DNA from: an uncultured Clostridia bacterium
Lineage (GTDB): Bacteria > Bacillota > Clostridia > Lachnospirales > CAG-274
Length of the DNA stretch: 64,000 nucleotides
Direction: 5' to 3'
Assembly: GCA_947591605.1 (NCBI GenBank)
Contig: CANQDF010000011.1
Location: 1-64,000 of the forward strand
Each line of letters begins with the position of its first letter. The first letter of the stretch is position 1. Shown here one piece after another: positions 76 through 13,452 of this stretch. The notes under the pieces were generated by a model. It was not told the origin of the DNA. It worked only from the letters and a program-made list of their open reading frames with translations, and did not search any database. A program made the position numbers and the translations under genes.

Positions 76-125
76 AGCGTATTCTTTCAATATAGAAAGA
101 ATACGCTATTATTTTGCTCTTTTTT
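76..125 (+). terminator. Perfect 13-bp hairpin, probable terminator
   Basis: Bases 76-88 and 95-107 are exact inverted repeats around a 6-base loop. A T-rich stretch follows, with a T6 run near 120-125. Its left flank (64-76) carries a GACAGTC motif that recurs near 42.2, 45.2 and 52.05 kb. Confidence 0.5.
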
Positions 126-223: not shown

Positions 224-403
224 ATGAATGTTAAGCAAAGAATAATTTCCCTTAAACTCTTAAAGGGGAAAAAAAATTATTCGGAGTTTTTGGAGGAAAT
301 CGGCGTAGCTACAATGGTAAGAGTAAATAGTAGTGAAAAAGAAACAGATGAGAAAAAATATTATACGAGGAGTATCAAAAATGAATGTAAATCGAGTAAA
401 TGA
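224..403 (+). CDS. Small hypothetical protein (59 aa)
   Basis: ATG at 224 opens a 59-residue frame starting MNVKQRIISLKLL, ending at TGA 401-403. It overlaps the NERD gene start (381) by 23 bases, which suggests translational coupling. The protein is lysine-rich and hydrophilic with no motif I recognise. The upstream SD is weak (a purine-rich stretch near 211-222). Lead gene of the left accessory cluster. Confidence 0.5.
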   Translation: MNVKQRIISLKLLKGKKNYSEFLEEIGVATMVRVNSSEKETDEKKYYTRSIKNECKSSK

Positions 404-1430
404 GCTAGTAGCAACAATGAAGTCTTTTGGGAAAGAGAAGTACAAGAAGAACGACCTGCTTACAGAGATGTTAGCACTTCAGCAGGAGATTGTAGGACTT
501 GCCTTCAACGGTTATCATGATTCAACGGCGAACCTGAAGATCTGGGATGTGGAAAGACATTTGGAATATCTCAATCAGGATTGCGGGAATGTGGCAGATG
601 AAGAGCTTCAGAAGTTTAAGTACGGATCAAAGACGCTATGCAACCTGATCAAAGCTGAGATTTCTGGCAACAGAGGAGAGGCAAAAGCTTTCCGGACACT
701 GCAGTTCATCCATTCAAAGAACAAAATTCTTAAGAATGTTGAACTCATGGATGGAAACTTTCGTACAGAGTTGGATGCAGTAGTCATCACACCGGGGGCA
801 ATAACAATTATTGAGGTAAAGAACACGGCGAAAAATATCTTCATTGATGAGAACGGTGATTACTTCCGGACAGGCGAGTTCCTTAAGTGGGATTGCAATA
901 TCGCCGAGAAAATGTCACTGAAGGAAGAACTGCTTCGCAAAGTTTTAGCAACCGATGGCATAGAAGATATTCGGATTAGAAGTATAGTAGTTTTCACTGA
1001 TAACAAGATAGAGGTTCAGAACAAATACTCAAAAATCAGAACCTGCTTCGTGAGTCAGCTGGCATACATCATCGATGAATTTAAGAACAAAAAGCCTTAC
1101 TTAGATGAAGAGATGGAAAAGATCGAGAACACGATAAGAATAGCAGAGAGTAAAGAGTCTTATTTATTCAATTTCGATGTGGCACAGTACAAACTTGATT
1201 TTGCAACGGTCATGGCAATTCTTGAAGAGGCTTCCGTAAAGGAGGAAGAAGTGAATTACGAGGAAGAAGAGGCGTTTAGGGTTGATACCAAGAACATGGT
1301 ATGGGATGGTCTGAAGAATTTCTTCAGATCCAAGTACATAGGATATGCAGGAAGTGCGGTAGCAACAGCGGCATTCGCTTTGATTTCTACGGTGGCAGTA
1401 AGTACAATTGGAAAGGGGGTATTAAGATGA
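381..1430 (+). CDS. NERD-domain (nuclease-related) protein with C-terminal membrane segment
   Basis: Predicted 349-residue protein. The middle carries a NERD-like core: a GNRGEAKAFRTL stretch, then ELDAVVITPGAITIIEVKN, which matches the E-x-D and E-V-K pattern of the restriction-endonuclease-like fold. The N-terminal third is helical. The last 30 residues contain a Gly/Ala-rich hydrophobic helix (GYAGSAVATAAFALIST) that could be a membrane anchor. I choose ATG 381 because CGAGGAG lies 8 bases upstream; a GTG at 333 in the same frame is the alternative. NERD proteins are seen in mobile DNA and some defence loci, but no specific role can be assigned. It heads a run of small genes joined by overlaps or short gaps. 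Confidence 0.75.
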   Translation: MNVNRVNELVATMKSFGKEKYKKNDLLTEMLALQQEIVGLAFNGYHDSTANLKIWDVERHLEYLNQDCGNVADEELQKFKYGSKTLCNLIKAEISGNRGEAKAFRTLQFIHSKNKILKNVELMDGNFRTELDAVVITPGAITIIEVKNTAKNIFIDENGDYFRTGEFLKWDCNIAEKMSLKEELLRKVLATDGIEDIRIRSIVVFTDNKIEVQNKYSKIRTCFVSQLAYIIDEFKNKKPYLDEEMEKIENTIRIAESKESYLFNFDVAQYKLDFATVMAILEEASVKEEEVNYEEEEAFRVDTKNMVWDGLKNFFRSKYIGYAGSAVATAAFALISTVAVSTIGKGVLR

Positions 1431-1576
1431 GCGATTTTGGAAAAGGAATGATTTTGGTACTGATGATACTGTATATTGTATCCCCGATAGATGCCTGCCC
1501 GGGTCCGATCGACGATTTAATCGTTCTGATCATAGGGTTGGCAGCACGCAAAGGTATTGATGTAAGAAAAGACTGA
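1427..1576 (+). CDS. Mini DUF1232/YkvA-like membrane protein (49 aa)
   Basis: ATG 1427 overlaps the NERD stop codon (ATGA) and has GAAAGGGGG just upstream. The 49-residue product has one hydrophobic helix ending in YIVSPIDACPGPIDDLIVL, which is the DUF1232 signature (Y-x-x-SPID-x-x-P-x-x-x-x-DD). DUF1232 proteins are usually about 100 residues or more, so this is a minimal version holding little beyond the signature and flanking helices. The function of the family is unknown. A longer frame from 1301 lacks an SD and would overlap the NERD gene widely. Confidence 0.65.
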   Translation: MSDFGKGMILVLMILYIVSPIDACPGPIDDLIVLIIGLAARKGIDVRKD

Positions 1577-1593
1577 AAGGGAGGAAGAAACTT

Positions 1594-1806
1594 ATGACAA
1601 TCGACATTTTGAAGAAAGGTGATCATGTAATTAGCGTAACATCCGATTTTATTGCGGTGGAGAGAAAGAATGGAGAGGTGGATATAATCCCCCTCTCCAA
1701 AGACGGAGCAACCTTTAGGATTGATCCGGAGAACATTGTAACTATTGGCTATGGAGATAACATCGTACAGACTCAGTCAGGAGATGTGACTATCACGACA
1801 TTTTAG
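1594..1806 (+). CDS. Small hypothetical protein (70 aa)
   Basis: 70 residues beginning MTIDILKKGDHVISV with GGGAGGA 9-10 bases upstream. The alternation of hydrophobic and polar residues suggests an all-beta small domain (IAVERKNGEVDIIPL, NIVTIGYGDNIV). I do not recognise a family. It lies 17 bases after the DUF1232-like gene and 12 bases before the next gene, so it is part of the same cluster. Confidence 0.6.
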   Translation: MTIDILKKGDHVISVTSDFIAVERKNGEVDIIPLSKDGATFRIDPENIVTIGYGDNIVQTQSGDVTITTF

Positions 1807-1818
1807 GAGGTGCTGGTT

Positions 1819-2013
1819 ATGGCAGGAAAGAAAAATAAGGCAGTTGTAGCTGTAATATCTGGGTTGACTGATAATCAGGCAGCTCAGATCACAAAGGATA
1901 TCATGAAGTCAAAACAAAGAAATGCACCTTATGGGAGAGGCACGATAGCATCGGGGCTCATGTCTAGTGTAGGCTCGTTGCTTCAGAAGGACACGAAGCA
2001 GATAGGAGGCTGA
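1819..2013 (+). CDS. Small basic hypothetical protein (64 aa)
   Basis: ATG 1819 is preceded by a consensus AGGAGG (1805-1810). A GTG at 1810 is in frame but overlaps the SD, so I reject it. The product begins MAGKKNKAVVAVISG and includes DNQAAQITKDIMKSKQ and a glycine/serine-rich tail. Basic, no recognised domain. Same operon-like cluster. Confidence 0.55.
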   Translation: MAGKKNKAVVAVISGLTDNQAAQITKDIMKSKQRNAPYGRGTIASGLMSSVGSLLQKDTKQIGG

Positions 2014-2017
2014 GAAT

Positions 2018-2239
2018 ATGGCAAAGAACAGATCAGCAGCACATACGAGAGCGCAGAAAGCAGGGCGTGAGCGTGATAGAAATATTTGTCAGATATGCGG
2101 ATCAAGCGATCATGTAGAAGGACACCATATCATTGACCATCAGTTTAATGGGGCGGCATTGGCAGATAACATCATCACTCTTTGTCATAAACATCATAGT
2201 GATGTTCACAAGGGTAAGATTGATATTCTGAAAATATAG
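2018..2239 (+). CDS. Small HNH endonuclease-type protein (73 aa)
   Basis: The product carries a compact HNH fold: a CQICG knuckle near residue 27, the GHHII metal and catalytic His pair, an Asn in ADNIITL, and a closing CHKHHSDVH. This order (CxxC, HH, N, CxxxH) is typical of stand-alone HNH nucleases of phages and mobile elements. GGAGGC precedes ATG 2018; the gap to the previous gene is 4 bases. A basic N-terminal tail ([17 protein letters not shown]) could contact DNA. The family assignment is firm; the target is unknown. Confidence 0.8.
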
Positions 2240-2250
2240 GAGGGCATAAT

Positions 2251-2469
2251 ATGACAATTTATACAACAAATGAGTGGAAGGGTTATGGGAAACAGAATTA
2301 TTACTGGAATGAGTATCGTTTGGAGGGCGACCGAGTGGTGAAGTACAAGTGCCACCGACAAAAGTTCTTTGATGGTGATGAGAATAACTGGGAAGAGGAA
2401 GAGCGTGAGGAGGATTCTTGGGCATTGGATGATCCTAATATGCCTGAATGGCTACATCAGTATCTGTAG
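2251..2469 (+). CDS. Small acidic hypothetical protein (72 aa)
   Basis: 72 residues with a consensus AGGAGGG before ATG 2251. Aromatic-rich N-terminal half ([18 protein letters not shown]) and a strongly acidic C-terminal half ([14 protein letters not shown]). No family recognised. The acidic character next to an HNH protein is reminiscent of an inhibitor, but that is only a guess. Confidence 0.55.
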
Positions 2470-2514
2470 GATTATTATAATTCATATTGTCTACAAAGCA
2501 AGGATGGTATAAAT

Positions 2515-2583
2515 ATGGCAAAGTATCAGGTTTTGATGCAGTATTTAGATGGAATTGACTTACTAGCAATTTTCATTCAGTAA
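2515..2583 (+). CDS. Possible 22-residue leader or remnant ORF
   Basis: ATG 2515 follows an AAGGATGG stretch and encodes MAKYQVLMQYLDGIDLLAIF before a TAA. It sits between the last cluster gene and a terminator. It may be a real micro-protein or a broken gene end. Confidence 0.25.
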   Translation: MAKYQVLMQYLDGIDLLAIFIQ

Positions 2584-2601
2584 CATAATATAGTTCGATT
2601 G

Positions 2602-2632
2602 GTGGCAGGCTGAAGGGGCTTGCCACTTTTTT
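2602..2632 (+). terminator. Intrinsic terminator ending the left accessory cluster
   Basis: GTGGCAGGC (2602-2610) pairs with GCTTGCCAC (2618-2626), one G-U, followed at once by T6. Confidence 0.8.
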
Positions 2633-2641
2633 GTGTGGTAG

Positions 2642-2968
2642 AATGCCAAGAGTCCTAAAAAACACCTCAAGATTTATATAAGACAAGAAATTAGCGCTAA
2701 AGGCGGTGACTTTATTATGTTTAAAACGGCGGATGCGTTTTGCTGTGCCGAAAATATGGTCTTGCAGGCAGCGGAGCTGGATATAGCCTCGTGCATAATA
2801 TCACGGGGCGAGGAAACGTTTGCGGGAGAAGACGGCAAAGCTCTGCTTAAGGAATGGGGAATACCGGATAATTATTCGGCAGTATGCTTTGTCATACTGG
2901 GATACATAGACGGAGAATATCCACACTCAAAGCCAATAAAGCCGGGCAGGATAAAAATAATAGAATGA
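2642..2968 (+). pseudogene. Nitroreductase-family fragment, N-terminal part missing
   Basis: The readable frame is open from 2642, and an ATG at 2717 gives an 83-residue product that starts inside a nitroreductase: FKTADAFCCAENMVLQAAELDIASCI corresponds to the helix and Ser-Cys region in the C-terminal half of FMN nitroreductases, and the tail has the usual VILGYIDGEYP...KP stretch. Full-length family members are about 170-220 residues. The lost half would lie where the left accessory cluster now ends. GGCGGTG upstream of 2717 could still allow translation. It lies 9 bases before the next flavin-type gene, so the pair may once have been an operon. Confidence 0.65.
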
Positions 2969-12504: not shown

Positions 12505-13452
12505 ATGGCATTGGTAACAAGTACCGAAATGTTTAAAAAAGCTTATGAGGGTAAGTACGCAATAGGTGCTTTCAACATTAACGATATGGAGATAATCCAG
12601 GGTGTAACAAGGGGCGCTGCCGCTCAGAATTCGGCTTGCATCCTTCAGGTTTCAAGGAGTGCGCTTAAATATGCAGGCCCAAAGTACCTTTACGGTATGG
12701 TTCAGGCTGCTGTTGAAGAAACAGGCATTGATGTGGCTCTTCACCTTGACCACGGCCCCGATATCGAAACAGTTAAGCTTTGCGTTGAAAACGGCTTTAC
12801 ATCCGTTATGTTTGACGGTTCACATTATGAATATGAAGAGAATGTTGCCAAAACCAAAGAGGTTGTTGAGTATGCACATGCTCACGGCGTAGTTGTAGAG
12901 GCTGAGCTGGGCAAGCTTGCAGGCGTTGAGGACGAGGTAAATGTAGACAGCGCAAACGCTACCTATACAGACCCCGATCAGGCGCTTGATTTTGTTCAGA
13001 AAACAGGCGTTGATTCACTTGCCATTGCTATAGGTACAAGCCATGGCGCATACAAATTCAAGGGTGAGCCAAAGCTTGACTTTGACAGGCTCGAAGTCAT
13101 CACCAAAAAGCTTGACGACGCAGGCTTTAAGCAGTATCCTATCGTTCTTCACGGTGCATCCTCCGTTGACCCTGCTGTAATAGAGCTCTGCAATAAGTAC
13201 GGCGGCGAGCTTAAGGGCGCAAGCGGCATACCTGTTGAAATGCTCAGAAAGGCAGCGGGTATGGCTGTTTGTAAAATAAATATGGATACAGATATCAGGC
13301 TTGCCATGACAGCAGGCATCAGAAAGTCCTTTGCCGAAAAGCCCGAGGCATTTGACCCAAGAGGATACCTCGGTGTTGCAAGAGATATGATACAGGAGCT
13401 TGTTGAAAACAAGATCAAGAACGTACTCGGCTCGGTTGATTCTATGAAATAA
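12505..13452 (+). CDS. fba: Class II fructose-1,6-bisphosphate aldolase
   Basis: 315 residues, a complete class II aldolase: zinc-binding His in HLDHGP, in GTSHGAYKF and in VLHGASS, and the phosphate loop INMDTDIR. It catalyses reversible cleavage of fructose-1,6-bisphosphate into DHAP and glyceraldehyde-3-phosphate in glycolysis. AAGGAGGA precedes the ATG and a strong promoter is close. Single-gene unit. Confidence 0.96.
   Translation: MALVTSTEMFKKAYEGKYAIGAFNINDMEIIQGVTRGAAAQNSACILQVSRSALKYAGPKYLYGMVQAAVEETGIDVALHLDHGPDIETVKLCVENGFTSVMFDGSHYEYEENVAKTKEVVEYAHAHGVVVEAELGKLAGVEDEVNVDSANATYTDPDQALDFVQKTGVDSLAIAIGTSHGAYKFKGEPKLDFDRLEVITKKLDDAGFKQYPIVLHGASSVDPAVIELCNKYGGELKGASGIPVEMLRKAAGMAVCKINMDTDIRLAMTAGIRKSFAEKPEAFDPRGYLGVARDMIQELVENKIKNVLGSVDSMK

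Follow-up and report, generated by a model that had tools for sequence, protein, structure and literature searches.

Six small genes on one strand (381-2469), close to the start of the analysed window (a 64,000-nucleotide stretch of DNA from an uncultured Clostridia bacterium), form a conserved set encoding a NERD-domain protein, a 49-residue membrane protein, B70, C64, an HNH protein, and E72. In our reading, held with about even confidence, a phage-type element of the serine-integrase kind carries this operon as cargo at its attachment-site end, and the operon most likely encodes the effectors of a modular immunity-type system. It is read as a probable phage-carried defence effector because its gene order recurs in related gut bacteria and phages beside immune-type sensor genes. 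The tiny genes are neither chance open reading frames (ORFs) nor host genes; phage-type elements of gut bacteria carry them repeatedly at the integrase end, as modular cargo that appears coupled to immune-type sensors. The features of the region are collected in Table 1.

Table 1. Features at the start of the window
Feature	Positions	Strand	Evidence or remark
Near-perfect palindrome, 32 bases	76..107	+	Terminator-like for an upstream gene, or operator
59-codon ORF, unsupported as gene	224..403	+	No relative, weak Shine-Dalgarno
NERD-domain protein (349 aa) ending in a hydrophobic segment	381..1430	+	Pfam NERD 5.8e-14
Hydrophobic protein, 49 aa, DUF1232-like	1427..1576	+	17.5 bits, cut-off 23
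B70, 70 aa, predicted all-beta, no family	1594..1806	+	Conserved in 10 distinct loci
C64, 64 aa, predicted helical, no family	1819..2013	+	Conserved in 10 distinct loci
HNH protein, 73 aa	2018..2239	+	Pfam HNH 25.2 bits vs 21.4
E72, 72 aa, extremely conserved	2251..2469	+	dN/dS 0.003 vs L007
Truncated remnant, 22 codons, of 70-residue L007 protein	2515..2583	+	
Terminator-like hairpin	2601..2627	+	
Mobile-element end	2657..2715	+	In L007, the matching sequence adjoins three serine integrases
Back half of interrupted host nitroreductase	2716..2968	+	Pfam C-terminal part only

The six genes are real and under purifying selection. Homologues were found for all of them, each is preceded by a clear Shine-Dalgarno sequence, and the successive intergenic gaps are -4, 17, 12, 4, and 11 bases. 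The closest relative, L007, is a phage contig with 81.8% DNA identity over 2,178 columns. Against this locus, dN/dS is 0.097 for the NERD gene, 0.141 for the DUF1232-like gene, 0.147 for B70, 0.053 for C64, and 0.033 for HNH, and E72 is the most constrained protein of the set. The original prediction had described seven or eight genes, each with its own Shine-Dalgarno sequence, and this holds for the six. ORF 224-403 overlaps the NERD gene by 23 bases. It had no match in viral contigs or in 96 other related genomes (one of 97, its own), and where L007 could be aligned, no clear counterpart was seen. Because no relative was found and its Shine-Dalgarno sequence is weak, it is not counted as a gene and is set aside on present evidence, the searches having returned nothing except itself. 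At the other flank, ORF 2515-2583 matches the start of its L007 counterpart and then diverges. The predicted closing terminator corresponds to a terminator-like hairpin past this remnant, and 131 bases separate it from E72, the last intact gene.

Both nuclease-type folds named in the prediction score above their Pfam cut-offs. The NERD match (PF08378) reaches 53 bits against a gathering cut-off of 22.1 and covers the profile completely (1-111 of 111). Residues E100, D132, E145, and K147 are invariant in all nine aligned sequences, and we take the conserved acidic residues together with the ExK to be a nuclease-type motif. The C-terminal end of the protein is moderately hydrophobic by hydropathy. 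In the HNH protein (PF01844), the motif residues H36-H37, N51, and H60 are invariant in eight of eight sequences; among its closest relatives of known structure are IscB and a 5-methylcytosine-specific restriction enzyme, and PADLOC returned a type IV restriction match (E 0.001). The 49-residue protein, described earlier as a minimal DUF1232 protein, falls under the threshold of that family (PF06803), and the likeness is a resemblance only.

Four proteins of 59-72 residues had been listed as unknown. The 59-residue one is the ORF set aside above; the other three, B70, C64, and E72, gave no family match in Pfam, PADLOC, or NCBIfam, and represent small protein families without assigned function, E72 being very constrained. 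The structure model of B70 (pLDDT 73) is all-beta and had no Foldseek match in the PDB at E <= 0.001. A second structure comparison gave Z scores of at most 5.8, largely to beta-propeller blades, and no fold relative can be claimed; its matches in PHROGs were weak (best E 0.036). For C64 (pLDDT 68), one of five models was clearly better than the others; confidence in the B70 and C64 models is moderate. Neither C64 nor E72 had a PHROGs match. The C64 gene of one relative, L071, carries a TAG codon (12658-12660) at the otherwise conserved Q20 while its neighbour genes are intact, and this codon is either a nonsense mutation or a recoded stop.

The position of the operon at the end of an element can be read from its downstream flank. 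The segment at 2657-2715 is identical to L007 in 50 of 60 columns, with an alignment score of 68, whereas the best of 200 shuffles scored 36 and the 16 other loci compared scored at most 31. In L007, the matching sequence lies just before a 79-residue ORF and the three serine integrases. The nitroreductase that follows in the window is intact in relative G038 (192 residues), where it is succeeded by the same neighbour gene as in the window, and relative G042 shows, at this position, an uninterrupted frame of 224 residues. The junction between element and chromosome is therefore near 2715, inside a host gene that relatives keep whole. Since 2657-2715 matches the integrase-side sequence of L007 and the nitroreductase is interrupted, the operon is placed at one terminus of an element that has integrated into that gene. 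The earlier suggestion of accessory cargo is supported, as the operon abuts this junction and its relatives occur in phage contigs beside integrases. A search with the nitroreductase family gave five matches in the same assembly, none of them a separate front half, and the other end of the element was likewise not found in the assembly. Two viral contigs, L007 and L008, carry the same genes between holin/endolysin genes and integrases, so that integrase and phage genes are seen on one element there, and the contig of the window starts before such genes could show. Specifically, position 1 of the window is the first base of contig C11 (from a 2.37 Mb assembly of 59 contigs), 223 bases 5' of the first ORF, and the upstream context of the operon is missing because the window opens at this contig end.

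Eleven distinct NERD loci were compared after near-identical contigs were collapsed (the window, L002-L008, L033, L058, and L071). B70-C64-HNH lies 3' of NERD in eight of them; the trio is not present in L002 and L033, and L004 ends too soon. The DUF1232-like gene follows NERD in 6/11 loci, and 5/11 contain E72. Within its taxonomic order the set is rare: NERD and the kinase-HAD gene described below were each found in 3/392 genomes, and C64 in 4/392, one of these weak. B70 was found in 2/398 genomes of the phylum (one weak). A looser NERD search (E 0.001) reached 9/196 genomes, mostly sharing just the NERD domain, and no NERD match was obtained among 50,697 phage records or 72,556 plasmid records.

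It could be argued that the genes are unrelated morons, merely neighbours in a cargo hotspot with no joint function. The original prediction had itself named separate occurrence without conserved order as counting against a joint system, and part of this is observed. B70-C64-HNH occurs without NERD in two further loci (L034 and L035), 3' of a small hydrophobic protein, and the upstream radical SAM module of the relatives also occurs apart from NERD. E72 is found without the rest of the operon in phage contigs and plasmids (L077, L080-L082, and the plasmid loci L083-L086). Its plasmid carriers are Vagococcus, Limosilactobacillus, and Enterococcus, and its identity is 68-97% across elements of Clostridia and Bacilli. 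The stop codon in one C64 copy and the remnant state of the last ORF of the window point in the same direction. Against this, the order NERD-(D1232)-B70-C64-HNH is kept across loci even though the NERD proteins sharing the NERD-B70-C64-HNH order are only 45-82% identical, and seven of the eight loci with both the NERD operon and the radical SAM module have co-switching arrays common to both operons. We therefore regard mere neighbourhood as improbable. E72 as a system-specific part was rejected, being solitary in other phage contigs and in plasmids of Bacilli; because it travels alone on such elements, at 68-82% identity, the system should be defined without it. Just 5' of B70-C64-HNH in L035 lies a gene for an RNase_T-type exonuclease.

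The immunity-type reading draws on the modules upstream of NERD in the relatives. In 8/11 loci, genes for an HTH-PIN-ankyrin protein, a radical SAM protein that weakly matches viperin models, a P-loop kinase-HAD protein, and a phosphoribosyltransferase lie 5' of the NERD operon. Two other NERD loci, L006 and L033, have a STAND-type ATPase upstream, which in L006 is an nSTAND ATPase accompanied by a RES-like gene (RES just under the cut-off). The statement that the cluster lacks an ATPase is thus correct within the window, but the contig begins shortly before the first ORF and these relatives have such ATPases upstream. Swapping among three sensor types is the behaviour of immunity effectors, and this underlies the effector reading. 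Under it, a membrane-tethered NERD nuclease and a small cytoplasmic HNH nuclease would be the effectors; B70, C64, and the 49-residue membrane protein may act as their partners or regulators. Activation of a paired infection sensor or regulator would set both nucleases on nucleic acid. The module paired with the operon in relatives is the HTH-PIN-ankyrin/radical SAM/kinase-HAD/phosphoribosyltransferase operon, an NB-ARC-kinase, or an nSTAND ATPase. The kept gene order, the broken nitroreductase at the element end, the phage neighbours in L007 and L008, the invariant NERD residues, and the array shared by both promoters in relatives also speak for this reading. A defence role of the gene set is plausible. 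Several observations count against an immunity function: the window proteins fit no system model of PADLOC, B70-C64-HNH and E72 also occur without NERD, L007 and the window have no array, and HNH is ordinary in phages.

Some further features of these neighbourhoods were recorded. In L033 (4329-10376), a protein kinase-NB-ARC fusion of 1128 aa is encoded directly 5' of the NERD and DUF1232-like pair; the operon is NLR-like and has other small proteins encoded downstream. RES-like proteins near the cluster in L071 (14652-15764, downstream) and L006 (3369-4514, upstream) are 34% identical. In L003 (6127-7692), kinase, HAD, and phosphoribosyltransferase parts are found in one 521-aa ORF, and their fusion suggests that they act in one pathway. 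In the source genome of the window, the kinase-HAD gene is absent by the same model that detected it in 3/392 genomes, and the radical SAM query found a distant relative only. L031 and L032 have the radical SAM module but no NERD gene. In L031 (10049-14896), genes for a small hydrophobic protein and an RNase_T exonuclease adjoin the module; the setting looks by eye like an integrative conjugative element, nearby genes having the look of conjugation genes.

Shared promoter motifs join the two operons in most relatives. In seven of the eight two-module loci (all but L007), the same pentamer is enriched 5' of both the HTH-PIN-ankyrin gene and the NERD operon. The pentamer is GTTGC in L003, L004, L005, L008, and L058 and GTGCA in L002 and L071, and it switches in step at both promoters. 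Enrichment reached p 0.001, the floor of 1000 dinucleotide shuffles, in 13/14 regions and 0.010 in the remaining one. Spacings of 20 and 30 bases are common between copies, and a scan of the 14 regions found, in 13, a promoter-like site with a reverse copy inside its -35/-10 spacer; one promoter of L058, with a relaxed -35, was recognised by eye only. Array regions hold 6-12 copies, compared with no more than four per 200-base window elsewhere in those loci, the exception being the upstream region of L004, which reaches the contig start and has three copies (p 0.010), the same as the three elsewhere in that contig. The seven loci amount to about six independent ones, because L005 and L008 are near-duplicates (the first 110 residues of their HTH proteins are identical). 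The alignment of the HTH proteins places a difference between the GTTGC and GTGCA groups in the predicted recognition helix, at the position that we take to be the recognition helix of the HTH-PIN-ankyrin protein.

The co-switching of one array at both promoters suggests, from sequence alone, that the two operons form one regulon in the array-bearing loci, and it provides the link between the radical SAM/phosphoribosyltransferase operon and the nuclease operon. No such array was found in the window, L006, L007, L033, L031, or L032; L034 has GTGCA three times (p 0.013) despite the absence of a radical SAM module. The absence of an array from the window copy fits a different regulator. An extended version of the immunity reading, which we consider unlikely, is a two-operon prophage immunity system in which an autoregulating HTH-PIN-ankyrin protein controls both operons via the spaced arrays. 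In such a system, the radical SAM/kinase-HAD/phosphoribosyltransferase operon might make a modified nucleotide- or peptide-type signal, the membrane NERD and HNH proteins would form the effector operon, and the window would hold an effector operon recruited to another sensor.

The main rival to the effector reading is a function in element maintenance. The genes would then serve integration, excision, DNA processing, or induction control of the element, with the HTH-PIN-ankyrin protein as a phage-type repressor of both operons. The placement of the genes between lysis genes and integrases agrees with such a role, as does the overlap of the operator-like arrays with promoters. HNH families are common in phages, and the XRE-type HTH of the HTH-PIN-ankyrin protein resembles phage repressors (an RstR-like match). 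A dedicated life-cycle gene, however, would have no need to exchange its partners for STAND ATPases, the genes are also found away from visible phage genes (L006, L033, and L035), and NERD is rare in the order. On balance, we judge element maintenance somewhat unlikely.

The radical SAM protein raises another alternative, a RiPP-type system, in which the upstream module of the relatives makes a modified peptide with B70 or C64 as substrates, giving a bacteriocin-like or signalling system. The nearest models for the protein are those of peptide maturases (HxsB, E 3.3e-24), and maturase structures were matched as well. The proposed substrates and the module are found apart in both directions, however, as L031 and L032 have the radical SAM module without B70 and C64, whereas L006, L034, and L035 have B70 and C64 without the module. 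This alternative is very doubtful.

The single domains of the operon are already known, and the combination was not found described. No description of this gene combination was recognised in the literature searched, and no paper there treats DUF1232 and NERD together; subscription papers lie mostly outside the scope of that literature. PADLOC 2.0.0 gave no system-specific match for the window proteins; besides the HNH match, a weak orphan methyltransferase match (E 0.028) was returned. Mokosh systems contain helicases. The window cluster shares a NERD domain with Mokosh and Nhi-like sets but has no helicase, and the Mokosh and Nhi models matched none of seven window proteins. The NERD domain occurs in defence gene sets (Mokosh type I and Nhi-like), and both domains, NERD and HNH, have precedents in defence systems (PMC10952713). 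With prokaryotic viperins, the relatives rather than the window invite comparison: the radical SAM protein of L007 matches pVip models (5.7e-11) and has an adjoining kinase gene, but the protein is nearer to peptide maturases, misses the NCBIfam viperin cut-off (36 vs 180 bits), and is absent from the window. STAND/NLR-type conflict systems combine sensor ATPases with swappable nuclease effectors, and a radical SAM effector is also mentioned (PMC7159879); neither NERD nor DUF1232 occurs in this source (0 occurrences each), and the window shows no ATPase. The MADS6 kinase (NF047741) has a NERD-like start, and the first 168 positions of its model align with residues 89-250 of the NERD protein in the window (3.6e-07). 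A kinase is lacking from the window protein, which stays below the cut-off of this model (29.1 vs 460 bits); the L033 relative has a separate kinase-NB-ARC gene.
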